IMG/VR virus record: IMGVR_UViG_3300010354_000834
Span: 1 to 21,073 of that record
DNA from: a virus
Length of the DNA: 21,073 nucleotides
Direction: 5' to 3' (one strand)
Shown: positions 8,026 through 20,722 of the stretch, piece after piece
Layout of the letters: every line of letters starts with the position of its first letter
Numbering within the stretch: the first letter of the stretch is position 1
The notes under the pieces: generated by a model
Seen by the model: only the letters and a program-made list of their open reading frames with translations
Databases searched by the model: none
What the model was told of the DNA's origin: nothing
Made by a program: the position numbers and the translations under genes

Positions 8026-8247
8026 ATGCAAGTCCCAAACTGGAAGCATCACTCAAAGAAAGAACAGAAACGAAAACTTAAACCGCAAGCACTGAGGCAA
8101 GCAAAAGCACGACTTGCTCAGTTCAAAAAGCGTCACATGGGTCACCCAAAAGGTGACCTTTCGTTTTATGATGGTCTCATACGAAATAAATCCGATGGCA
8201 GTCTCTCACGAAATCAAATCCCAACTTGCCAAACTGCTTGCCACTGA
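8026..8247 (+). CDS. Small basic hypothetical protein
   Basis: This 73-codon frame starts 14 bases after gp46. Its first 40 residues are extremely basic and helical (HHSKKEQKRKLKPQALRQAK, then ARLAQFKKRHMGHPKGDLS), which looks like a real nucleic-acid-binding peptide. The last 20-27 codons overlap the start of the next large gene in another frame and read like a shadow of it. A perfect hairpin (8140-8158) lies inside the frame. It could be a genuine small gene overlapping its neighbour by up to 53-80 bases, or a leader peptide. I recognise no family. Confidence 0.45.
   Translation: MQVPNWKHHSKKEQKRKLKPQALRQAKARLAQFKKRHMGHPKGDLSFYDGLIRNKSDGSLSRNQIPTCQTACH
8140..8161 (+). terminator. Hairpin before the VWA gene, possible weak terminator
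   Basis: GGTCACC (8140-8146) pairs perfectly with GGTGACC (8152-8158) around a CAAAA loop. It is followed by TTTCGTTTT, a broken T run. It resembles the other terminators in the window but lies inside the 73-codon frame and 9 bases before the first candidate ATG (8168) of the next gene, so it could instead control translation. Confidence 0.5.
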
Positions 8248-10381
8248 AGACCTTGTGGTGGAGCACAAGAAAGTTCCTACTGCCTGCTTCAACGTTCACA
8301 CTCGTGTTCTAACTCTGCCTCTGTGGGAAAAGGCAAGTGGACTTGTGTATGACCTTCTGGTGGGTCATGAGGTGGGTCATGCTCTCTTCACTCCTGATGA
8401 AGATTGGTTGGAAACCGTGAAAGTTCCTCAACAGTTTGTGAATGTGGTTGAGGATGCTCGCATTGAGAAACTGATGAAACGTAAGTATGCTGGACTTGCT
8501 AAGACTTTCTTCAACGGTTATAAGGAACTGAATGAAGAAGACTTCTTCCAACTTGAAGATGAAGATATTTCTTCTTTCAATCTTGCTGACCGTGCCAATC
8601 TTTACTTTAAAGTTGGTAACTTTGTTACCTTAGATTTTAAACCAGAAGAACAAGAAATCCTTAACCTGATTGATGCTTGCGAAAGTTTTGCTGATACCCT
8701 GATTGCTGCTGAAGAACTTTACAAGTATTGTAAGAAGGAAAAGGAGCAGCAGCAAAAAGTCGCAGACTTTGATTCGCACGAAACTCAAGGAAATTCGCAG
8801 TCTCCTGCTAGTGATTTTGTGGAGACCAATAACTCCTCTTCTGAGCAAGAGGGTGAGAGTGATAACTCATCCGAAAAAGAGTCCTCAGAATCCTATGGTG
8901 GCACTGCTAAAGGTGATGAAACTCCTGTGAAATCTTCTGGGAAAAAAGAAGAACCAGAAGTTCGTACTGCAGAATCTTTGGAAGATAAGATTCGTGATCT
9001 TGTTGGTAACGATGAATATGAGAATGTTTATCTTGAAGTTCCGCAAGTAAATCTTGAAACTGTGATTGGTAAAAATTCTGAAGTTCATAAAGATATTGAT
9101 GATTCATTTGCTCATCAACAGAAACTTCACAATAATCATGCAGAAGAGAAGGGTTATAATCCAGTAAATCTCTATAAAGAATCTGATGTTGATTTTAAGA
9201 AATTTAAGTCTTCTGCTCAGAAAGAAGTCAATTATCTGGTGAAAGAGTTTGAGTGCCGCAAGGCAGCAGATCAGTATGCCCGTGCATCCACTTCTCGCAC
9301 GGGTGTTCTTGATACAAATCGTCTTCATACCTACAAATATAATGAAGATCTGTTCAAGAAGGTTTCTGTGATTCCTGACGGTAAGAATCATGGTCTGGTA
9401 TTTGTGCTGGACTGGAGTGGTTCTATGGCAGAAGTGATGCTTGATACTTGTAAGCAACTTTTCAACCTAGTTTGGTTCTGTAAGAAAGTATCTATTCCTT
9501 TTGAAGTTTATGCCTTCACTAATGAATGGAGACGTGGTGAGTATGATTATGAAAATGACTGCTATCTTGCCGCGGACCGCACCCCTCACTATCAAAAGAA
9601 GGAGGGACTTCTAGTTGTTGATGAAACTTTTGCTATGATGAACATTCTCACTAGTAAAGTTTCTGGTAGTGTTCTTGAGCATCAAATGTTGAATATCTGG
9701 AGGCTTGCTTATTGCTTCGGTAGGACTTACAGTTCTCCTTTTACATATTCTAATCGTCTTGGTCTTTCTGGAACTCCTCTGAATGAAGCACTGATTACTC
9801 TTCATCAAATTCTTCCTAAATTCCAGAAAGAAAACAAACTCCAGAAAGTTCAGTGTATCGTTCTGACTGATGGTGAAGCAAATCAACTTGTTCATCATCG
9901 GGAAATTAAACGTGCTTGGGAGAAAGAACCTTTTATTGGAACTGGATATATTAACCCTTGTTCTGCATTCCTTCGTGACCGCAAACTTGGAACTACCTAT
10001 AAGTTTGGTTATGGATATCATGAATTTACCGATACTCTTCTCAGGAACTTGAAGGATAAGTTTTCTTCCACAAACTTCATTGGTATTCGTGTTCTAGAAA
10101 GTCGTAATGCAAATCGTTTCATTCAACTTTACCATTCTTATACTGATAAGCAGTATGAAAAAATTCAAAATGATTGGAAAAAGGTGAAGAGTTTTACTAT
10201 CACCAATTCTGGATATGATGCATACTTTGGAATGTCAGCATCTGCGCTTTCTCAGGATTCTGAGTTTGAAGTTGCTGAGGATGCTACCAAGTCTCAAATC
10301 AAATCTGCTTTTGTCAAGTCTCTGAAGACTAAAAAACTCAACAAGAAAGTTCTTGGTGAGTTCATTTCTCTCGTTGCCTAA
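8195..10381 (+). CDS. CobT-like VWA-domain protein with HExxH zincin motif
   Basis: A large protein, 728 residues from the ATG at 8195. ATGs at 8168 and 8114 are in frame; 8168 is a real alternative, while 8114 would start before the hairpin. The N-terminal domain has GHEVGHALFTP with H58, E59 and H62, then NVVEDARIEK with Glu86 and Glu91, a gluzincin-like spacing for a zinc metallopeptidase. Residues about 178-263 are a Ser/Glu/Lys low-complexity linker. From about 340 a CobT-like segment leads into a von Willebrand A domain: LVFVLDWSGSM (MIDAS Asp406) and VLTDGEANQ. It stands close to the CobS/MoxR-type ATPase, and MoxR-VWA pairs usually work together. I infer a remodelling or proteolytic complex; a cobalt chelatase role is unproven. 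Early codons are GC-rich like gp23. Confidence 0.85.
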   Translation: MAVSHEIKSQLAKLLATEDLVVEHKKVPTACFNVHTRVLTLPLWEKASGLVYDLLVGHEVGHALFTPDEDWLETVKVPQQFVNVVEDARIEKLMKRKYAGLAKTFFNGYKELNEEDFFQLEDEDISSFNLADRANLYFKVGNFVTLDFKPEEQEILNLIDACESFADTLIAAEELYKYCKKEKEQQQKVADFDSHETQGNSQSPASDFVETNNSSSEQEGESDNSSEKESSESYGGTAKGDETPVKSSGKKEEPEVRTAESLEDKIRDLVGNDEYENVYLEVPQVNLETVIGKNSEVHKDIDDSFAHQQKLHNNHAEEKGYNPVNLYKESDVDFKKFKSSAQKEVNYLVKEFECRKAADQYARASTSRTGVLDTNRLHTYKYNEDLFKKVSVIPDGKNHGLVFVLDWSGSMAEVMLDTCKQLFNLVWFCKKVSIPFEVYAFTNEWRRGEYDYENDCYLAADRTPHYQKKEGLLVVDETFAMMNILTSKVSGSVLEHQMLNIWRLAYCFGRTYSSPFTYSNRLGLSGTPLNEALITLHQILPKFQKENKLQKVQCIVLTDGEANQLVHHREIKRAWEKEPFIGTGYINPCSAFLRDRKLGTTYKFGYGYHEFTDTLLRNLKDKFSSTNFIGIRVLESRNANRFIQLYHSYTDKQYEKIQNDWKKVKSFTITNSGYDAYFGMSASALSQDSEFEVAEDATKSQIKSAFVKSLKTKKLNKKVLGEFISLVA

Positions 10382-10384
10382 ATA
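10378..10384 (+). promoter_or_regulatory. Late-type promoter box CTAAATA for the Lys-rich protein
   Basis: The exact CTAAATA overlaps the TAA stop of the VWA gene and lies 20 bases before the ATG at 10405. It is one of only three exact copies I found by eye in the window, all just ahead of start codons. A small CTAAA/TTTAG hairpin (10386-10400 region) follows in the leader. Confidence 0.65.
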
Positions 10385-10404
10385 CCTAAAAACTGTTTAG
10401 TAAT

Positions 10405-10917
10405 ATGAAAACTTTTCAGCAATTTGTGCAGGAGTGTTACTCTATTCAAGAAACTTCTCTTACTCGTGTAATGAGTAAATCAAAGAAGGGTGGTATGGCA
10501 ATTATGTCAGCTCAACGTGGTGACAAGTCAAAGTCAGAAAACAAAGCACGTTCAAAACAACTTGAAAAGGATGTAAGAGGTGCAGGTCTTCCAGGTCCCA
10601 CAAAGGTTGCTGGTAGATATACTGAAAATCCAGGAACTCCTCAAGAAAAGAAAGTTGGTGAAAAGTCTCACGTAATTACTCCAGGAAAAAAAGGTAAGAG
10701 AAAGTTCAAGAAAGCAATTGAGAAACTAGGTAAAAAGTACGATCAAGATTCTGTTCTTCTTCAACGCAAGAAAGGTGGAGAGGCAACTCTTAAGGGAACT
10801 TCTAAAACATCTTGGCCTGGTAAAGGAAAGAATGTTAAAATAGGAAGTATGAAACCAGGTAGAACTGGTGAGTTTGATACTAAAGTTAAGAATAAAACAT
10901 TTACAGTTGAGCAATGA
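10405..10917 (+). CDS. Lys-rich protein with capsid-targeting-like N-terminus
   Basis: A 170-residue strongly basic protein. The first residues, MKTFQQFVQE, closely resemble MKTYQEFIAE of the T4 internal head proteins. In T4 this is the capsid-targeting sequence removed by prohead protease gp21 after (I/L)xE. A second possible cleavage site is SIQE before TSLT (residue 17). The body (MSAQRGDKSKSENKARSKQL, then GRYTENPG, EKSHVITP and KKYDQDSVLLQRK) resembles my recollection of DUF3293-type proteins; that match is tentative. It sits behind a CTAAATA late box, as a virion protein should. It may be packaged with DNA and ejected into the host. Its stop overlaps the next start (ATGA). Function unproven. 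Confidence 0.75.
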   Translation: MKTFQQFVQECYSIQETSLTRVMSKSKKGGMAIMSAQRGDKSKSENKARSKQLEKDVRGAGLPGPTKVAGRYTENPGTPQEKKVGEKSHVITPGKKGKRKFKKAIEKLGKKYDQDSVLLQRKKGGEATLKGTSKTSWPGKGKNVKIGSMKPGRTGEFDTKVKNKTFTVEQ

Positions 10918-11099
10918 AAACTAAATTTCCATTTGAACACGTAGTAAAATACGATACTAAAGAAGTATGGATTAAGTGTAATAGCAGTACAACTGCTATG
11001 GGTATTCCCGCACTTGTTAAAAAATATTATCCAGGTTATACTGGTCATATAGCAAGTGATGAGTACCTTGAAGAACTCAAAAACCAGTTGGCAAACTGA
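10914..11099 (+). CDS. Hypothetical 61-residue protein
   Basis: A small mixed-charge protein (MKTKFPFEHVVKYDTKEVWI start) ending in a helix, SDEYLEELKNQLAN. It overlaps the stop of the Lys-rich gene by 4 bases and is followed within 10 bases by a terminator, so the two genes form a short, probably late, unit. The central PALVKKYYPGYTGHI has no motif I recognise. No signal peptide or membrane segment is seen. Confidence 0.7.
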   Translation: MKTKFPFEHVVKYDTKEVWIKCNSSTTAMGIPALVKKYYPGYTGHIASDEYLEELKNQLAN

Positions 11100-11105
11100 C
11101 CACAG

Positions 11106-11128
11106 GGGTCCCAAGCGGACCCTTTTTT
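11106..11128 (+). terminator. Intrinsic terminator before the CobS-like gene
   Basis: GGGTCC (11106-11111) pairs with GGACCC (11117-11122) across a CAAGC loop and is followed by six T residues. It closes the Lys-rich/61-residue unit. Confidence 0.9.
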
Positions 11129-11132
11129 CGTT

Positions 11133-11138
11133 TATAAT
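11133..11138 (+). promoter_or_regulatory. -10-like TATAAT upstream of the CobS-like gene
   Basis: A perfect TATAAT lies 5 bases after the terminator T run and 26 bases before the ATG at 11164. No acceptable -35 box occurs 15-19 bases upstream, where the terminator stem lies, so activity would need an activator or altered polymerase. Confidence 0.45.
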
Positions 11139-11163
11139 GACTAAGTTGAAACGAAACAAACGA

Positions 11164-12255
11164 ATGGCACTCTCCTCCGACTACATCCGCACTTCTCTTC
11201 AAAACCTTTACGGCACTGCTGTAACTGGTGCTGATATTCGTGCTTGGTGTGCTCTGAACGATGCTAACTATCAAACTGTTACTAAAAAGTTGGATCAATT
11301 TAAAGTTGGTCGTGGTAAATGGAATCTTGAGGTGACTCAACAAAAAGTTGATGAGATTGAACGTTCTTATCAAGCTCCCTCTGCTCTTCCTGCTGTGGAA
11401 CAAAACCTTATTCCTGATAAAGATGATACCTTCGTCAAGTTTGGTAACTTTAGTGACATTAAAAAAATTATTCAGTCCCGTATTTTTTATCCTGCGTTCA
11501 TTACGGGTCTTTCGGGTAACGGTAAAACGTTCTCTGTGGAGCAAGCTTGTGCTCAACTGAAACGTGAATTGATTCGTGTGAATATCACGATTGAAACTGA
11601 TGAGGATGACCTGATTGGTGGTTTCCGACTGGTAAATGGTGAAACTGTTTGGCATAATGGTCCTGTGGTAGAAGCACTTGAACGTGGTGCCGTGTTGCTT
11701 CTGGATGAGATTGACCTTGCTTCTAATAAAATCCTGTGTCTCCAGTCCATCCTTGAAGGTAAGGGTGTCTTCCTTAAAAAGATTGGACGTTTTATCAAAC
11801 CTTCTGCTGGGTTCAATGTGATTGCCACTGCCAACACGAAAGGTAAGGGTTCTGATGATGGTCGTTTTATCGGCACCAACGTGCTTAATGAAGCTTTCCT
11901 TGAACGATTCCCTGTGACATTTGAGCAGTCTTATCCTGCCCCTTCAACTGAGCAAAAGATCCTTGAAGGTGTTGCTCTGGATTTGCAGGTGGAAGACCGT
12001 GACTTCTGCAAACGTTTGGTGGACTGGGCAGACATCATCCGTAAGACTTTTTACGATGGTGGTATTGAAGAAATCATCAGCACCCGTCGTCTAGTTCATA
12101 TCATTCGTGCCTATAGCATTTTCCAAGATAAGGCAAAGGCAATCCAAGTGTGCGTGAACCGTTTTGACGATGAAACAAAGCAAGCATTCCTTGAACTTTA
12201 TGACAAGGTTGATGCTGACTTCCAACTTCCTGTTGACCAGGAACCCCAGTCCTGA
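11164..12255 (+). CDS. cobS: CobS/MoxR-type AAA+ ATPase
   Basis: A 363-residue AAA+ ATPase of the MoxR/CobS group; cyanophage homologues are usually annotated CobS (cobaltochelatase subunit). An N-terminal region (about 1-95) precedes the ATPase core. Walker A GLSGNGKT is at 115-122, Walker B LLLDEID at about 178-184, with a sensor-like VIATANTKG, NEAFLERFPVTF and a sensor 2-like STRRLV. The frame is open back to 11056, but earlier starts would lie in the terminator or overlap the TATAAT, so the ATG at 11164 is chosen. The VWA/HExxH protein two genes upstream is its likely partner. Codon use and GC resemble gp23. A role in B12 synthesis is family annotation; a protein-remodelling role is equally plausible. 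Confidence 0.88.
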   Translation: MALSSDYIRTSLQNLYGTAVTGADIRAWCALNDANYQTVTKKLDQFKVGRGKWNLEVTQQKVDEIERSYQAPSALPAVEQNLIPDKDDTFVKFGNFSDIKKIIQSRIFYPAFITGLSGNGKTFSVEQACAQLKRELIRVNITIETDEDDLIGGFRLVNGETVWHNGPVVEALERGAVLLLDEIDLASNKILCLQSILEGKGVFLKKIGRFIKPSAGFNVIATANTKGKGSDDGRFIGTNVLNEAFLERFPVTFEQSYPAPSTEQKILEGVALDLQVEDRDFCKRLVDWADIIRKTFYDGGIEEIISTRRLVHIIRAYSIFQDKAKAIQVCVNRFDDETKQAFLELYDKVDADFQLPVDQEPQS

Positions 12256-12264
12256 TAGAATATT

Positions 12265-12290
12265 AGGAGGTCAATGTGCCTCCTCTTTTT
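12265..12290 (+). terminator. Intrinsic terminator after the CobS-like gene
   Basis: AGGAGG (12265-12270) pairs with CCTCCT (12279-12284) around an 8-base loop and is followed by C and five T residues. The 5' arm is also an anti-SD-complementary AGGAGG, but no start codon follows at a suitable distance. Confidence 0.85.
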
Positions 12291-12822: not shown

Positions 12823-13488
12823 ATGAAACTCTCTGATAAAACTCTCTCTGTTCTGAAGAATTTTTCTTCTATTAATCAATCTATGCTTTTTAAGCAAGGT
12901 AATAAACTTCGCACAATTTCTGTGATGAAAAATATTCTTGCTGAAGCAACTATTACGGAAGAGTTTCCAAAAGACTTTGGTATCTACGATCTTAACCAAT
13001 TCTTGAATGGTTTGAATCTCCACCAAAGTCCAGAACTGGATTTTAAAAATGATGGATATGCTGTCATTCGTGAAGGTAAAATGCGTTCAAAGTATTTCTT
13101 CGCAGATCCTAGTGTAATCATTACACCTCCTGAAAAAGATATTGTTCTTCCAAGTGAAGATGTATGTTTTGAACTGAGCACTGAACAACTGGACAAACTT
13201 CTGAAAGCAGCAGCAGTGTATCAACTTCCCGATATCTCTGCAGTTGGTGAAGGTGGTGTGGTAAAACTGGTTGTTCGTGATAAAAAGAATGACACCTCTA
13301 ACGATTTTGCGATCGTTGTTGGTGAAACTGATTCTGAGTTTGTGTTTAACTTCAAGGTTGAGAATATTAAAGTTCTTCCTGGAACTTACGAAGTAGTTGT
13401 TTCTCAAAAACTTCTGTCACGATTCCAATCCAAGAATCATGACTTGTGCTATTATATTGCTCTGGAGCCTGATTCTACTTTTGGATGA
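12823..13488 (+). CDS. 45: Sliding clamp gp45
   Basis: gp45 is the trimeric DNA polymerase processivity clamp and, in T4, the activator of gp55-dependent late transcription. The product is 221 residues (T4: 228). The N-terminus MKLSDKTLSVLKNFSSINQS and the ENIKVLPGTYEVVVSQKLLS, YYIALEPDSTFG ending are typical of the family. The ATG at 12823 is preferred over an in-frame TTG at 12817. It starts 2 bases after the previous stop, and its own stop overlaps the next gene (ATGA). The sequence around the ATG (TTATTGATTATGAAA) is AU-rich and unstructured, as expected of a RegA target. Confidence 0.94.
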   Translation: MKLSDKTLSVLKNFSSINQSMLFKQGNKLRTISVMKNILAEATITEEFPKDFGIYDLNQFLNGLNLHQSPELDFKNDGYAVIREGKMRSKYFFADPSVIITPPEKDIVLPSEDVCFELSTEQLDKLLKAAAVYQLPDISAVGEGGVVKLVVRDKKNDTSNDFAIVVGETDSEFVFNFKVENIKVLPGTYEVVVSQKLLSRFQSKNHDLCYYIALEPDSTFG

Positions 13489-13997
13489 ATATTTTCGTCA
13501 CATCTCCATTTCCTGCCGAGAGTGCTATTTGTCTCCCCGATAAACACATCGTCAAGATGCCCCTAGAGTGCTGTCAGATGCTCTCTATCGTCGCCTCTGA
13601 CAAGTGGGGGCACGGGTATGGGACTCTTCCTAAGGCAGATGGAACCCCCTACAAGACCGAGAAAGGAGCATTCCGTAATCATCCCTGCACCAAATGGGCA
13701 ATGGAAAGTATTCATAATGCCTATTGGTTAATCAAATGGGGATTGAATTTGTCTGATGAATATAGTTTGAGGTACAATAAAACTCATTCCTGCTACAAAA
13801 CACTTGTAGATGCTTACTATCTTTTTCCAAAGGGAAAGATTACTGAAGTAACACCATTTGCCCGTGCGATGCCAGATGAATTTAAATTTGACACAAGCAT
13901 TGACACTTTTACTGCTTACAAGATGTATATCGCATCCAAACCTTGGGTTGCATCTAATTATCTTCGTATGCCGCAACGAAAACCTGACTGGGTATAA
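13485..13997 (+). CDS. Conserved phage protein of unknown function
   Basis: A 170-residue protein with the pattern MNIFVTSPFPAESA, DKHIVKMPLECCQMLS (about 19-34), HPCTKWAMESIHNAYWLIKW and LSDEYSLRY...H. I recall similar frames in other T4-like phages (CDKHvvKMilEsaQmLs, hPc.vWa.es..Ny.WL) without a proven function. The DKH..KM..E..Q element loosely recalls the N-terminus of pyrimidine-dimer glycosylases, but this is too weak to call. Base composition changes sharply within the gene: 53% GC over 13501-13680 against 35% over 13741-13920 (counted by hand). It overlaps the gp45 stop by 4 bases and lies 7 bases before gp44. Confidence 0.8.
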   Translation: MNIFVTSPFPAESAICLPDKHIVKMPLECCQMLSIVASDKWGHGYGTLPKADGTPYKTEKGAFRNHPCTKWAMESIHNAYWLIKWGLNLSDEYSLRYNKTHSCYKTLVDAYYLFPKGKITEVTPFARAMPDEFKFDTSIDTFTAYKMYIASKPWVASNYLRMPQRKPDWV

Positions 13998-15982: not shown

Positions 15983-16346
15983 ACTTAAAGACTGGTTAAA
16001 CTCCATTAATTTTACGAAAGAAGATTTATCGGAACATATCAAAGAGTATTCTCCATACATTATCAATCGTTGCCTATCTGGTCACATTGATTGTGTGATG
16101 TTTGCAAATGAAATGAATATTCATCATAATCTAGACAAAGACATGCAATATTCATTTTTTATAAATACTCTGAGGAAGCGTAAAAGGTTTTCTCCTTGGC
16201 TCCGTAAGGATAAAGTAAAAGACTTAGAATGTGTTAAACAATACTATGGTTATAGTAATGAAAAGGCATCTCAAGCTCTGAAGATTTTATCTAAATCCCA
16301 AATAGACTTTATTAAACAAAAACTTGACATTGGAGGAAAAAAATGA
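15975..16346 (+). CDS. 62: Clamp loader small subunit gp62
   Basis: gp62 is the single non-ATPase subunit of the gp44/62 clamp loader. The product is 123 residues, much shorter than T4 gp62 (187). Recognisable parts are ELKDWLNSINFTKEDL at the start and YIINRCLSGHIDCVMFANEM (about 28-47), then NTLRKRKRFSPWLRKDKV. Position directly before regA also fits. It overlaps dam by 8 bases, and its stop overlaps the regA start (ATGA). A GGAGG ribosome site for regA lies in its last codons. The shortening appears natural for this phage group, not a truncation. Confidence 0.85.
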   Translation: MPELKDWLNSINFTKEDLSEHIKEYSPYIINRCLSGHIDCVMFANEMNIHHNLDKDMQYSFFINTLRKRKRFSPWLRKDKVKDLECVKQYYGYSNEKASQALKILSKSQIDFIKQKLDIGGKK

Positions 16347-16780
16347 CAACCGTGGCCGAACCTGAGGTTAAGTGGTCTCAAGATAAAATGATTGAAATTG
16401 TTCTTGAGGAACCTGATGATTTTTTGAAAGTTCGTGAAACTTTAACCAGAATCGGAGTAGCATCTAGAAAGGAGAAAAAACTCTATCAAAGTTGCCATAT
16501 TCTGCATAAGCAGGGTAAGTATTACATTGTTCATTTTAAAGAATTGTTTGCCTTGGATGGTAAACATGCAAATTTAACAGTGAATGATGTACAAAGACGA
16601 AATAGAATTGTAAGACTTCTTTATGATTGGGGATTGATTAGTGTTGTAAATCAAGATCTAATTTCTGATATTGCTCCACTAAATCAAATTAAAGTTTTGG
16701 CATATAAAGAAAAAAATGATTGGATTTTGGAAACAAAATATAACATTGGAAAGAAGGGAAAAACTACTGAAGATGAATAA
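16343..16780 (+). CDS. regA: Translational repressor RegA
   Basis: RegA binds AU-rich sites over start codons of early mRNAs (in T4 including 44, 45 and regA) and blocks ribosome entry. It is 145 residues; T4 RegA is 122. The core MIEIVLEEPDDFLKVRETLT (16-35), LYQSCHILHKQGKYYIVHFK and RRNRIVRLLYDWGLI nearly superimpose on T4 RegA. A 15-residue N-terminal extension precedes the T4-equivalent Met. The upstream start is favoured because GGAGG (16332-16336) lies 6 bases before the ATG and it overlaps the gp62 stop. The extension is absent in T4. The gene ends within an ATAAATA box. Confidence 0.94.
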   Translation: MTTVAEPEVKWSQDKMIEIVLEEPDDFLKVRETLTRIGVASRKEKKLYQSCHILHKQGKYYIVHFKELFALDGKHANLTVNDVQRRNRIVRLLYDWGLISVVNQDLISDIAPLNQIKVLAYKEKNDWILETKYNIGKKGKTTEDE

Positions 16781-16783
16781 ATA
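16777..16783 (+). promoter_or_regulatory. ATAAATA late-like box overlapping the regA stop
   Basis: The box overlaps the TAA of regA. Only a structured segment and a terminator follow before Hsp20, so if active it would make a short RNA of about 75 bases. The motif also occurs by chance in this AT-rich window. Confidence 0.35.
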
Positions 16784-16788
16784 AGTAT

Positions 16789-16815
16789 GAGACCTTTCGT
16801 GCGGTCTCTACGAAA
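16789..16815 (+). promoter_or_regulatory. Mutually exclusive hairpins downstream of regA
   Basis: GAGACC (16789-16794) pairs with GGTCTC (16803-16808). The loop sequence CTTTCGT (16794-16800) also pairs with ACGAAAG (16810-16816). Connecting loops of 0-2 bases make a simultaneous pseudoknot sterically unlikely, so this looks like a two-state RNA switch or a compact ncRNA element. Confidence 0.45.
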
Positions 16816-16830
16816 GTCGGAACACCCTAA

Positions 16831-16864
16831 AAAGAGGTTCGGTTTTTACCGTTCCTCTTTTTTT
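16831..16864 (+). terminator. Intrinsic terminator after regA
   Basis: AAAGAGG (16831-16837) pairs with CCTCTTT (16854-16860). Inside, CGGT pairs with ACCG around TTTT, separated by a symmetric TT/TT internal loop. A run of seven T residues follows (16858-16864, partly in the stem). Confidence 0.9.
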
Positions 16865-16873
16865 CGTTTCTTG

Positions 16874-16879
16874 TATAAT
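16874..16879 (+). promoter_or_regulatory. -10-like TATAAT upstream of hsp20
   Basis: A perfect TATAAT lies 9 bases after the terminator T run. No good -35 box is present at 16-18 bases upstream. Transcription would start about 16886 and give a leader of about 54 bases to the preferred Hsp20 start at 16940. Confidence 0.45.
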
Positions 16880-16939
16880 TATTAATGGATGCCGAAAGGG
16901 TCCACAAAACACAAACTCGCTTTTAAAGGAGCTACTATA

Positions 16940-17374
16940 ATGACTAACCTCACAAGGTATACTGCTGCGGATTTGCCTACCCTGTTGGATAGAATTACTC
17001 GTAATAGTATTGGAATGGACGAATATTTTGATCGGCTATTTAATCTTCACGAAACTACTTCTAACTATCCACCATATAATCTCATTCAAGTTAGTAATGT
17101 AGAATCAAGACTTGAACTCGCACTCGCTGGATTTAAAAAGGAGGAAGTACATGTATACACAGAGTATGGAAAACTTTTTATCGAAGGACAAAAAGAGGAT
17201 AGGGAGTCTGATACCCAATACGTCCATAAGGGATTGGCTCAACGATCTTTCAAGAGAGCATGGACATTATCGGACGACACAACAATTAAAGAGGTCACAT
17301 TTGAAGATGGATTATTGACTGTAACTCTTGGTAAAATTGTCCCAGAACATCATGCTCGTAAAGATTATCTCTAA
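16940..17374 (+). CDS. hsp20: Small heat shock protein (Hsp20 / alpha-crystallin)
   Basis: A 144-residue member of the Hsp20 family, holdase chaperones that bind unfolding proteins. The alpha-crystallin domain runs from about 45 to 135: YNLIQVSNVESRLELALAGF, KEEVHVYTEYGKLFIEGQKE, then AQRSFKRAWTL and FEDGLLTVTLGKIVPE. The GLLTVTLGK element is the family hallmark (A.xxxGxLxxxxPK-like). The frame opens at an ATG at 16889, but AAAGGAG (16925-16931), 8 bases before the ATG at 16940, identifies the real start. It has its own intergenic region with terminator and -10 box upstream. Hsp20 genes are common in T4-like cyanophages, where they may help virion protein folding. Confidence 0.93.
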   Translation: MTNLTRYTAADLPTLLDRITRNSIGMDEYFDRLFNLHETTSNYPPYNLIQVSNVESRLELALAGFKKEEVHVYTEYGKLFIEGQKEDRESDTQYVHKGLAQRSFKRAWTLSDDTTIKEVTFEDGLLTVTLGKIVPEHHARKDYL

Positions 17375-17377
17375 ATA
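17371..17377 (+). promoter_or_regulatory. Late-type promoter box CTAAATA for the Gly/Asn-tailed protein
   Basis: The exact CTAAATAAA overlaps the hsp20 TAA stop and lies 10 bases before the ATG at 17388. Layout matches the gp3 promoter: box, short A-rich leader, ATG, no Shine-Dalgarno. Confidence 0.65.
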
Positions 17378-17387
17378 AAAATAAAAA

Positions 17388-17576
17388 ATGAAATCTTACG
17401 ACGAGTTCAAGACAATTGCATATAAAAATGCAGTTCCTCATACAGTTTATAGAGATGGAAAATCTCAAAAAATTGGCAAGGGAAAAGCAGTTCCTGTAAG
17501 AAGCCGTTCAAGTGCTGGTGGAAATGGTGACTCTGGTAATGGCAATGGTAATGGTGGTGGAAACGGTGGTGAATAA
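17388..17576 (+). CDS. Small protein with Gly/Asn-rich tail
   Basis: A 62-residue protein. The N-terminus MKSYDEFKTIAYKN loosely recalls the capsid-targeting start MKTYQEF of T4 internal proteins, but no (I/L)xE cleavage site follows. The middle is basic (YRDGKSQKIGKGKAVPVRSR) and the last 20 residues are almost only Gly, Asn, Ser and Asp (GGNGDSGNGNGNGGGNGGE), clearly unstructured. It is preceded by a CTAAATA box and followed by a strong terminator, so it may form a monocistronic late unit. A virion role is a guess. Confidence 0.65.
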   Translation: MKSYDEFKTIAYKNAVPHTVYRDGKSQKIGKGKAVPVRSRSSAGGNGDSGNGNGNGGGNGGE

Positions 17577-17648
17577 ATAAAAATTGAATATCGTCGGCGC
17601 AACGGGGCATTAACTGGCAAAAACCAGTTGACGTGCCCCTCTTTTTTT
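17574..17648 (+). ncRNA. Candidate short structured RNA
   Basis: An AATAAATAA box lies on the stop codon of the Gly/Asn-tailed gene (17574-17580). About 25 bases later a long hairpin and T run follow. If the box is an active late promoter, a 55-65 base RNA dominated by the terminator hairpin would be made. The same arrangement occurs after regA. This is speculative; the segment may simply be the 3' end of the upstream mRNA. Confidence 0.3.
17604..17648 (+). terminator. Two-stage terminator before the Sm-like pair
   Basis: The outer stem GGGGCA (17604-17609) pairs with TGCCCC (17634-17639), and the inner stem AACTGG (17612-17617) pairs with CCAGTT (17624-17629) around CAAAAA. Seven T residues (17642-17648) follow. 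Its 3' half contains the -35 box of the next promoter. Confidence 0.92.
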
Positions 17649-17656
17649 GATAGAAT
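17628..17656 (+). promoter_or_regulatory. Sigma70-type promoter inside the terminator
   Basis: The -35 TTGACG (17628-17633, 5/6) and -10 TAGAAT (17651-17656, 5/6) are separated by exactly 17 bases. The spacer is made of the terminator's 3' arm and its T run. Transcription would start about 17663, 15 bases before the Sm-like gene at 17678, and would serve the Sm-like pair and probably gp43. Confidence 0.7.
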
Positions 17657-17677
17657 GAATTCAAGTCTAGAAAAACT

Positions 17678-18031
17678 ATGAGTATTAAAGTAATTCTTTT
17701 AAAATCAAATGACTATGTTATTGCAGATGTAAAAGAACTTTCTGTAGAGGAAAAATCTGTAGGATATCTTCTTACAAAACCATATGTTATGACATTAAAA
17801 TACGCTGATGTTTTGTTCAGTGAAGTTACAAGTAATGGTAATAATGTTGCTGTAAAATTTGATCAATATATTCCCTTTACTGATCAAAAAGAAATTCTAA
17901 TTCCTTGCGATTGGGTAGTTACAATGGTAGACCCAGTAAGACAAATTCGTGAAACATATGAGGAAACTACAAATGCAAACAATAAAGATTCTGGCACTAA
18001 CAAACAGTCAGATACTGATCAGTCAGATTGA
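17678..18031 (+). CDS. Sm-like small protein, copy B
   Basis: A 117-residue protein. Residues about 1-85 alternate beta strands: SIKVILLKSNDYVIADVKEL, GYLLTKPYVMTLK, NVAVKFDQYIPFTD and EILIPCDWVVTMVDP. The final ILIP.DWVVTMVDP matches the ISMDNILTMVE element of the 4006 gene and SSDKILTLADP of the next gene. The last 25 residues (TTNANNKDSGTNKQSDTDQS) are a polar disordered tail, and that stretch overlaps the next gene's start in another frame. It follows a sigma70-type promoter by about 20 bases. Sm-like fold and RNA binding are inferences. Confidence 0.68.
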   Translation: MSIKVILLKSNDYVIADVKELSVEEKSVGYLLTKPYVMTLKYADVLFSEVTSNGNNVAVKFDQYIPFTDQKEILIPCDWVVTMVDPVRQIRETYEETTNANNKDSGTNKQSDTDQSD

Positions 18032-18230
18032 AGAAATTAGTGCTGATATTGGAGAACCTGATTGCAAATTGATTAAACCATTTGTTGTGAGAAATGATCA
18101 TACAATGGAACCATTCCTTTGTGGATACACCAGACAAGATACATTTATGATGAGTTCGGATAAGATTCTGACACTTGCAGATCCAACTCCAACTTTACTT
18201 GAAAAATATGAGGACTTGATTAAAGAATGA
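17973..18230 (+). CDS. Sm-like small protein, copy C
   Basis: An 85-residue protein from the ATG at 17973; GAGG at 17960-17963 supports this start over an in-frame ATG at 17949. Strands are TIKILALTNSQILISQIEEI, CKLIKPFVV, and TFMMSSDKILTLADP, with a short C-terminal helix LLEKYEDLI. It aligns best with the C-terminal half of the 4006 copy (DTFIISMDNILTMVE). It overlaps copy B by 59 bases and overlaps gp43 by 4 bases, so all three are translationally linked. The pair could form a mixed ring. It is the smallest of the three. Confidence 0.68.
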   Translation: MQTIKILALTNSQILISQIEEISADIGEPDCKLIKPFVVRNDHTMEPFLCGYTRQDTFMMSSDKILTLADPTPTLLEKYEDLIKE

Positions 18231-20722
18231 GATTTTACACTAATGTTCAGTTGATTGGAAATCAGTTTTTGGTTCGTGGAGTAGATAATGGCAAAAGATT
18301 TGAGACAAGAGATGAGTTTTTTCCAACTCTCTTTGTAAAAACTAAAAAAGATTCTAAGTATAGAACATTAAGTGGTGAAGCAGTAGAACCCATCAATCCT
18401 GGAACTGTGAAGGATTGTCGTGAGTTCTACAAAAAGTATGATGAGATTGATGGATTTGAAATTTATGGAAATGAAAGATACATTTACCAATATATTTCAG
18501 AAAAATATCCAGAAGATGAAATCAAATTTGATATTAGTAAAATCAAACTTGTAACTTTGGATATTGAGGTTGCTTCTGAGGAGGGATTCCCAGATGTAGA
18601 GTCTTGTTCTGAAGAAATCCTTGCGATTACAATTCAGGACTACACAACCAAGGAAATTATTACTTGGGGTGTTAAACCATTTAATAACAAACAAAGTAAT
18701 GTCACATATCATCACTGTCCAGGCGAGTATGAACTACTGAGTCACTTTATCAACTATTGGATGGTTGATGTGCCTGATGTTGTGACTGGTTGGAATATTC
18801 AGTTGTACGATATTCCTTATATTTGTAAGAGACTGAATAGAGTTCTTGGTGAGAAACTAATGAAACGTTTCTCTAACTGGGGACTTGTGACTGAAGGTGA
18901 AACTTATATTCAAGGACGTAAACATACTGTTTTTGATGTGGGTGGATTAACTCAACTTGACTATCTTGATCTTTATAAGAAGTTTACTTATAAAGCACAG
19001 GAATCATATCGTCTTGATTATATTGCTGAAGTTGAACTGGGACAGAAGAAACTAGATCACTCTGAGTTTGATACTTTTAAAGACTTCTATACCCAAGGTT
19101 GGCAAAAGTTTATTGAATACAACATCGTTGACGTAGAACTTGTTGACCGTTTGGAAGACAAGATGAAACTGATTGAACTTGCTCTTACTATGGCATATGA
19201 TGCCAAAGTAAACTATGCTGATGTGTTCTATCAAGTGCGGATGTGGGATAATATCATCTACAATTATCTTAAGAAAAATAACATTGTCATCCCCCCGAAG
19301 AATAAATCATCAAAGAATGAAAAATATGCTGGGGCATATGTTAAAGAGCCGATTCCTGGGATGTATGATTGGGTGGTCAGTTTTGACCTTAATAGCCTTT
19401 ATCCCCATCTTATTATGCAATATAACATCTCTCCAGAAACACTCCTTGACGAAAAACATCCAACTGCAAATGTTGAAAAGATTCTAAAAGGAGAACTAAA
19501 CTTTGAGATGTATAAAGACTATTCGGTATGTCCGAATGGTGCGATGTTCCGTAAGGATGTTCGTGGATTTCTTCCAGAATTGATGGAAAAGATTTATAAT
19601 GAACGTGTAATCTTTAAAAAGAAGATGCTTGCTGCAGAGCAAGAATATGAAAAAACTAAAAATAAGGAGTTGGTTAAAGAGATTGCAAGATGCAATAATA
19701 TCCAGATGGCGAGAAAGATTCAATTGAACTCTGCTTATGGTGCTATCGGCAATCAGTATTTCCGTTATTACAAACTAGCAAATGCTGAGGCAATCACACT
19801 TTCTGGTCAACTTTCTATTCAGTGGATCATGAATAAGGTAAATACTTACCTGAATAAGATTCTTAAAAGTGGAGATGTAGATTATGTTATTGCTTCGGAT
19901 ACTGATTCTCTTTATATTAATATGGGTCCTTTGGTTGAGAGTGTATTCAAAGGAAGAGAGAAAACTACTGAAAGCATTGTTTCGTTCCTTGATAAGGTCT
20001 GTCAGTTGGAATTTGAAAAATATATTGAAAATTCTTACCAAGAACTGGCGGACTATGTAAATGCTTATGAACAAAAAATGTTCATGAAACGTGAGTGTAT
20101 TGCTGAACGTGGTATTTGGACAGCAAAGAAAAGATACATTCTAAGTGTTTGGGATAGTGAAGGTGTTAGATATGAAAAACCAAAACTAAAAATCAAAGGT
20201 ATTGAAGCAATCAAATCCTCAACACCAGCACCTTGTAGAAAAATGTTGAAGGAATCATTTGACATTATGATGAGTGGTTCTGAAGATGACATGATTGATT
20301 TTATTGATAGATGTAGAACAAGTTTTAAGAAATTATCTCCAGAAGAAATTTCATTCCCACGTTCTGCATCGGATGTTCAAAAATATTCATCATCTTCTGA
20401 CATTTATGGTAAAGGAACTCCAATTCATGTTCGTGGAGCACTTTTGTTTAATCATTACATAAAACAAAACAAACTTACCAAAAAATATTCACTTATTAAT
20501 AATGGTGAAAAAATTAAATTTATTTTTTTGAAAAAACCAAACATAATTCATGAAAATGTAATTTCTTTTATTCAAGAATTTCCTAGAGAACTTGGTCTTG
20601 ACAAGTATATTGACTATGAACTACAATTTGAGAAAGCTTTTCTAGAACCACTCAAGTCTATTCTTGATACTATTGGATGGAATGTAGAAAAAACTGTAAA
20701 CCTTGAACTCTTTTTTGCCTGA
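18227..20722 (+). CDS. 43: DNA polymerase gp43 (family B)
   Basis: The replicative DNA polymerase, 831 residues (T4: 898). Exonuclease motifs: ExoI TLDIEVAS (D112, E114), ExoII GWNIQLYDIPYI (188-199) and ExoIII EYNIVDVEL (Y298, D302). Polymerase motifs: A SFDLNSLYPHLIMQYN (D387), B ARKIQLNSAYG (495-505) and C YVIASDTDSLYIN (DTDS 558-561). All catalytic residues for synthesis and proofreading are present. The C-terminal region (KLKIKGIEAIKSS onward) is the thumb, ending with a likely clamp-binding tail NLELFFA. It overlaps the Sm-like gene upstream (ATGA), and its TGA overlaps the next ATG (TGATG). Confidence 0.98.
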   Translation: MRFYTNVQLIGNQFLVRGVDNGKRFETRDEFFPTLFVKTKKDSKYRTLSGEAVEPINPGTVKDCREFYKKYDEIDGFEIYGNERYIYQYISEKYPEDEIKFDISKIKLVTLDIEVASEEGFPDVESCSEEILAITIQDYTTKEIITWGVKPFNNKQSNVTYHHCPGEYELLSHFINYWMVDVPDVVTGWNIQLYDIPYICKRLNRVLGEKLMKRFSNWGLVTEGETYIQGRKHTVFDVGGLTQLDYLDLYKKFTYKAQESYRLDYIAEVELGQKKLDHSEFDTFKDFYTQGWQKFIEYNIVDVELVDRLEDKMKLIELALTMAYDAKVNYADVFYQVRMWDNIIYNYLKKNNIVIPPKNKSSKNEKYAGAYVKEPIPGMYDWVVSFDLNSLYPHLIMQYNISPETLLDEKHPTANVEKILKGELNFEMYKDYSVCPNGAMFRKDVRGFLPELMEKIYNERVIFKKKMLAAEQEYEKTKNKELVKEIARCNNIQMARKIQLNSAYGAIGNQYFRYYKLANAEAITLSGQLSIQWIMNKVNTYLNKILKSGDVDYVIASDTDSLYINMGPLVESVFKGREKTTESIVSFLDKVCQLEFEKYIENSYQELADYVNAYEQKMFMKRECIAERGIWTAKKRYILSVWDSEGVRYEKPKLKIKGIEAIKSSTPAPCRKMLKESFDIMMSGSEDDMIDFIDRCRTSFKKLSPEEISFPRSASDVQKYSSSSDIYGKGTPIHVRGALLFNHYIKQNKLTKKYSLINNGEKIKFIFLKKPNIIHENVISFIQEFPRELGLDKYIDYELQFEKAFLEPLKSILDTIGWNVEKTVNLELFFA

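Follow-up and report, generated by a model that had tools for sequence, protein, structure and literature searches.

The window analyzed here (IMG/VR virus record IMGVR_UViG_3300010354_000834, positions 1 to 21,073; 21,073 nucleotides) is a fragment of a T4-like cyanophage genome. It carries a pair of genes that is present in nearly all T4-like cyanophages: one encodes a zincin-VWA protein, in which an N-terminal zincin-like domain is joined to a von Willebrand factor A (VWA) domain, and the other encodes a CobS-like AAA+ ATPase. The pair is likely a MoxR AAA+ ring with a zincin-VWA partner, and not a cobaltochelatase. The fuller statement, in which the zincin also cuts the target remodeled by the ring and this target is a protein of the replication/recombination phase, has in our estimate about an even chance of being right. 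MoxR-VWA systems are known remodelers. The evidence comes from sequence, predicted structure and gene order, and bears on the following features.

8195-10381, + strand: zincin-VWA protein, 728 aa (phrog_459 “peptidase”); ATG at 8195, stop at 10381; PHROGs E 6e-265
8195-8749, + strand: N-terminal zincin-like domain, residues 1-185; AlphaFold2 predicted local distance difference test (pLDDT) 89.6; nearest PDB folds ArdC and minigluzincins (weak E-values)
8366-8380, + strand: HEVGH (H58-H62), HExxH zinc-site motif; H58, E59 and H62 in 235/235 homologues
8441-8467, + strand: NVVEDARIE (N83-E91) with the proposed third ligand E86; N83, E86, D87 and R89 in 235/235
9380-10114, + strand: VWA domain, about residues 396-640; best Foldseek matches of the full model are the NorD chains of NorQD 9qhe and 9qh6
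9410-9427, + strand: DWSGSM (406-411), motif of the metal ion-dependent adhesion site (MIDAS); sequence and homologue alignment
9773-9877, + strand: other MIDAS residues, T527 and TDGE (558-561); sequence and homologue alignment
11164-12255, + strand: CobS-like MoxR/CbbQ-type AAA+ ATPase, 363 aa (phrog_249); AAA_5 5e-18, CbbQ_C 1.5e-5; ATG at 11164
11506-11529, + strand: Walker A, GLSGNGKT (residues 115-122); ATPase sequence
11695-11709, + strand: Walker B, LLLDE (residues 178-182); ATPase sequence
11104-11124, + strand: terminator-like hairpin directly 5' of the ATPase gene; hairpin scan

The zincin-like domain

The seven motif residues H58, E59, H62, N83, E86, D87 and R89 do not vary across the 235 full-length homologues (32-92% identity), and because of this invariance the HExxH motif is, at the level of sequence, not a chance match. 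E91 is a glutamate in 220 of these proteins and an aspartate in the other 15. The same seven residues are identical among 53 representatives sharing less than 60% identity, a set in which 22 of the 185 positions of the zincin domain are invariant, as against none of the 71 in the adjoining linker. The first-pass annotation had made the conservation of H58, E59, H62 and E86 decisive beforehand, and the invariance of all four bears it out. The MIDAS is also conserved in the homologue alignment. Homologues were retrieved with peptide patterns that did not contain HExxH, but one of them contained DWSGSM, whose conservation is therefore partly a selection effect.

In the AlphaFold2 model of the N-terminal domain (predicted template modeling score, pTM, 0.85), HEVGH lies on helix 49-65, and E86, D87 and R89 lie on the next helix, 79-97. 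An HExxH on a helix, followed about 24 residues on by an invariant candidate for the third ligand (E86), is the arrangement expected of a zincin sequence. When this domain is compared with the PDB using Foldseek, the first nine places are all occupied by zincins, with a best E-value of only 0.044: the matches include the antirestriction protease ArdC and the minigluzincins selecase, jannalysin and abylysin, with PprI and Wss1 lower down. The fold check that had been asked for thus came out in part, with the motif on two helices and zincins as the nearest solved folds, though the matches are weak. The model of the full-length protein (pLDDT 84.8, pTM 0.78), which like that of the domain is a confident one, is closest to NorD. 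Solved CobT entries (9uka and others) are absent from the Foldseek matches listed, and may be missing from that library.

No Pfam or NCBIfam model reaches its cut-off for the zincin-VWA protein, and searches against PDB sequences gave nothing meaningful; its family link came via PHROGs, profile-profile comparison and predicted structure. It is a full-length member of phrog_459, just as the ATPase is of phrog_249, “porphyrin biosynthesis” (E 6e-138). The window genes are thus the same in kind as those of other T4-like cyanophages, and what is disputed is only their functional names.

The ATPase and its linkage to the zincin-VWA gene

The ATPase has both Walker motifs, its AAA_5 and CbbQ_C matches are above the Pfam cut-offs, and its PDB sequence matches are Midasin, CobS and NorQ. 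The pair thus has the makeup of a MoxR/VWA system, namely an AAA+ ATPase of the MoxR/CbbQ group and an adjoining VWA partner with an intact MIDAS. Relatives of the zincin-VWA protein occur in 463 phage records, nearly all from Synechococcus and Prochlorococcus phages, with a few in Pelagibacter, Stenotrophomonas, Pseudoalteromonas and Ochrobactrum phages. Of the 211 loci that have space for it, 206 contain a CobS-like gene beside the zincin-VWA gene, in 205 cases on the same strand, with a median gap of 236 bp. In the literature cobS has been described as a cyanophage core gene (PMC3037559). In S-CRM01 and S-CREM2, where the pair lies elsewhere in the genome, the two genes stay together. The S-CREM2 genome paper lists this phage without cobS (PMC10665884), but an ATPase 59% identical to the CobS-like protein of the window adjoins its zincin-VWA gene.

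Comparison with cobaltochelatase

Like the pair, the aerobic cobaltochelatase CobN-CobS-CobT has an AAA+ partner and a VWA partner. Cobaltochelatase membership nevertheless fails every sequence test made. With the CobS equivalog model TIGR01650 (cut-off 558.55) the ATPase reaches 72.6 bits, compared with 594 for a gammaproteobacterial CobS. The zincin-VWA protein has no TIGR01651 match at E-values up to 1 and no PF11775 (CobT_C) match, and it reaches 9.4 bits with PF06213, below the cut-off of 26.1. The ATPase core is 26% identical to bacterial CobS and 29% identical to a plasmid ATPase; in the tree of this core, branches are long and do not settle how the viral, plasmid and CobS lineages are ordered.

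The motif itself also separates the two families. The CobT comparison set was taken from Pseudomonadota genomes, in which 37 loci were scanned. HExxH is found at the matching place in none of 35 CobT proteins, and 34 of them lack it throughout the first 260 residues; the 35th has an HExxH elsewhere in an extended frame, and CHDDSVH at the matching place (L282). All 18 CobT motifs printed are HDxxxH followed by an ExxR motif, and there is no HExxH in the CobT chain of the solved structure 9uka. The two other loci, which are chromosomal, encode PF06213 proteins that pass the Pfam CobT cut-off despite an intact HExxH (L182, 1471-3348; L184, 1471-3666), without a CobS in the locus and, in L182, with a DUF3150 neighbor. 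Proteins of this type would be counted as CobT in Pfam-based B12 surveys.

The catalytic subunit was not found on the cyanophage side. A search of 50,697 phage records gave CobN in 2, neither from a cyanophage; none turned up in 11 related viral contigs or in the window, which is a fragment. The annotation had reported no CobN-like gene in the window, and the CobN-family profile search was indeed empty. In the unannotated record of Pseudomonas phage Y13 (OQ572414), positions 16271-20029 give a near full-length CobN-like match, which is possibly host DNA. Picocyanobacterial genomes of the host family encode CobN/ChlH-family proteins in 40 of 41 cases, the family model not telling CobN from ChlH, and CobT in none. 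E. coli, in the control set, has no CobN-family match. The pair is probably not a cobaltochelatase, as the annotation had already suspected: the CobS and CobT cut-offs are unreached, HExxH is kept, and CobN is absent from the cyanophage records.

Distant relatives and the possible ancestry of CobT

HExxH and a VWA motif also occur together in proteins labeled “CobT” or VWA from Roseobacter phage CRP-810, Vibrio phage ICP2, Rhizobium phage RHEph10, Salmonella phage SSU5, Bacteroides phage BS162P1, Halovirus HCTV-1, Gordonia phage GMA3 and an E. coli phage, and in most of these an ATPase gene lies close to the zincin-VWA gene. The region of the third ligand differs in ICP2 (VVDHNIE) and could not be placed in GMA3. 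These relatives were selected by similarity search, not by random sampling, and most contigs are fragments.

On the E. coli IncC plasmid pSCEC2, a CobS-like ATPase, a DUF3150 protein and a zincin-VWA protein are encoded around ssb, bet and exo. This set resembles the window pair by its CobS-like ATPase and by a VWA protein with HExxH...N..ED.R.E, and differs by the extra DUF3150 protein and by low sequence identity. Across the IncC and Marinobacter plasmids read (L175, L176, L177), these three genes are arranged around ssb, bet/recT and exo. The CobS-like ATPase query matched 2,414 plasmid records. A literature search on DUF3150 with VWA in plasmids found nothing bearing on function. A short CobT-like peptide used as a probe yielded a single record; the sequence of the related plasmid gene was taken independently from other records.

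Profile-profile comparison links the phage N-terminal domain to a group of zincin-VWA proteins encoded on plasmids and chromosomes (98% probability, E 3e-14), and this group to CobT over its full length (99.4% probability). The direct comparison of phage and CobT profiles is weak (probability 15%, E 0.0017), with VVEDARIE aligned to ALEQARCE of CobT. The alignment of the CobT N-terminal domain with the zincin domain thus depends on plasmid and phage intermediates and on SSU5, whose protein passes both CobT models (PF06213 2e-37, the other 2.5e-112) and keeps HEVAH. These comparisons of sequences suggest that the N-terminal domain of CobT is a decayed zincin that lost its HExxH, the direction of change being inferred.

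Genomic context and gene layout

In cyanophages the pair is flanked by gp46 and gp45. Its plasmid counterparts lie among ssb, bet and exo (IncC) or ssb, recT and exo (Marinobacter), and elsewhere the neighbors are DNA polymerase III in RHEph10 and SSU5, and primase in ICP2. None of the 30 proteins in the S-SZBM1 virion matches one of the two products in length (718 and 363 aa).

The window opens with genes for a gp23-like capsid protein, the tail tube, UvsY, UvsW, a gp55-like sigma factor, gp47 and gp46; after gp46 come the zincin-VWA and CobS-like genes, then gp45, gp44, gp62, RegA and DNA polymerase. Names of genes without a profile match were assigned by gene order. All the elements attributed to the zincin-VWA protein by the annotation, a zincin motif joined to a VWA domain with an intact MIDAS, could be located (HEVGH 58-62, E86/E91, DWSGSM, T527 and TDGE), and the CobS-like gene that it placed about 0.8 kb downstream lies across a gap of 782 bp. 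This gap contains a 170-aa and a 61-aa open reading frame (ORF). The longer one, at 10405-10917, has a Pfam S-AdoMet_lyase match (E 2e-16), and its start, MKTFQQFVQECYSIQE, resembles a T4-type capsid-targeting segment with an I-x-E site for the prohead protease.

The hairpin 5' of the ATPase gene has a counterpart at 8139-8159, which precedes the zincin-VWA gene, and another at 12265-12284 lies 3' of the ATPase gene. There are eight terminator-like sites in 5 kb, compared with 2.7 (standard deviation 1.9) expected. The zincin-VWA and ATPase genes may each be a separate transcription unit. A gene for a pyrimidine-dimer DNA glycosylase lies near the pair at 13485-13997 (PF03013, E 2e-15), as one also does in CRP-810 (L260, 5818-6312). 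PADLOC found no defense-system match among the window proteins.

GC content is 39.2% in the zincin-VWA gene and 43.4% in the CobS-like gene, which compares with a window average of 36.2% and with 47.8% in the gp23-like gene. The codon usage of the pair correlates with that of gp23 at 0.55 and 0.56, as compared with 0.54 for gp45 and 0.50 for gp43. The view that the two genes have GC-rich, gp23-like codons is right only in part: their GC is above the window average, and their codon likeness to gp23 is no better than that of gp45 and close to that of gp43. The high expression that had been read from these codons was rejected on the same grounds, as the hint was weak and the correlations do not support it. 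A literature search on the expression timing of the pair found no paper.

Proposed mechanism and alternative explanations

If the pair works as NorQ/NorD does, the ring of ATPase subunits would deliver its zincin-VWA partner to a target. In that system the VWA protein sits in the ring as a plug, and its MIDAS is required for the target but dispensable for ATPase binding (PMC9976466). The likeness extends to the combination of a MoxR ATPase with a VWA partner, and the full-length window model finds its best structural match in NorD. NorQ/NorD differs in that it puts iron into nitric oxide reductase, and that paper mentions no metalloprotease domain in NorD. In the window pair, the N-terminal zincin would then cleave the remodeled target, most likely a host or phage nucleoprotein of the replication/recombination phase rather than a tetrapyrrole. 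Such a target is preferred to a virion protein, though with no more than moderate confidence, because of the neighbors in several elements and because no S-SZBM1 virion protein has a matching length.

Several points weigh against this reading. In Foldseek, no solved structure matches the zincin domain with an E-value below 0.04, the profile of the domain alignment retrieved no PDB sequence, and what the model shows of H58, H62 and E86 is their placement on two successive helices. Complex formation, zinc, proteolysis and the kind of target are all inferred. The replication/recombination context is less clear in CRP-810 and GMA3; it is an argument from association, drawn from a few hand-picked elements, and the gene order of T4-like phages is conserved for many unrelated genes.

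The idea of a MoxR ATPase working with a metallopeptidase-VWA protein is not new. It was put forward in 2021 for other jumbo phages, those of group 2.2, where an N-terminal metallopeptidase fused to a VWA domain stands in the same domain order beside a MoxR ATPase; a role in virion assembly was proposed by analogy with a MoxR-VWA pair that an archaeal virus requires for its tail (PMC7824862). Cyanophages belong to group 2.1, and their pair is not named in the part of the paper available. Here the pair would be a chaperone-protease that remodels and trims structural proteins, which is in keeping with the processing of many head proteins by T4-like phages, and an assembly factor may leave the finished particle. 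This explanation is nonetheless unlikely: the neighbors in cyanophages and in unrelated elements are replication and recombination genes, conjugative plasmids carry a related zincin-VWA protein and CobS-like ATPase although they have no virion, and neither product length occurs in the S-SZBM1 particle. It also seems improbable that the zincin domain binds zinc or another metal without cutting, the pair then being a pure MoxR-type remodeler or an inserter of metal cofactors. NorQ/NorD, which inserts non-heme iron and requires the VWA MIDAS (PMC9976466), is a precedent, the CobT branch retained the domain without HExxH, which points to a non-proteolytic use of the fold, and HExxH is also found in enzymes that are not proteases. 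However, the general base Glu59, which serves catalysis and not metal binding, is invariant in the 235 sequences and retained in the distant viral and plasmid relatives read.

The opposite published view holds that the “peptidase” label is a misannotated CobT, and that the phage proteins hijack the host CobN (PMC8651126). The pair would then be a viral CobST that raises cobalamin synthesis for ribonucleotide reductase. A partner would be at hand, since the hosts have CobN/ChlH-family proteins and no CobT, and CobT is homologous to the zincin-VWA proteins. We regard this as highly improbable. The CobS score is far from its cut-off, TIGR01651 and CobT_C do not match, the ATPase core is 26% identical to CobS and 29% to the plasmid ATPase, the HExxH that is absent at the matching place in the 35 CobT proteins is kept, and no CobN was found in cyanophage records. 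Nor can the CobN idea cover the relatives in an E. coli phage and, with the ATPase, in an E. coli plasmid, because E. coli has no CobN-family match. The evidence favors the domain reading of PMC7824862 and argues against that of PMC8651126.

More broadly, a MoxR ring with a zincin-VWA partner might be one mobile-element machine common to cyanophages, other phages, haloarchaeal viruses, phage-plasmids and IncC plasmids, which would strip or cut DNA-bound proteins during replication and recombination, with CobT as a domesticated branch without the protease site. We offer this only tentatively, and its truth is doubtful.

Implications

Marine surveys count cobS as an auxiliary metabolic gene for vitamin B12. 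The common claim that T4-like cyanophages boost B12 production by their hosts probably goes back to a misnomer. If the pair is a protein-remodeling protease, marine B12 claims would need correction, and so would Pfam-based CobT counts that include zincin-intact proteins of mobile elements. An intact HExxH, as opposed to the HDxxxH of CobT, is a simple sequence test that separates both types, and the two opposed published proposals become testable by point mutants.

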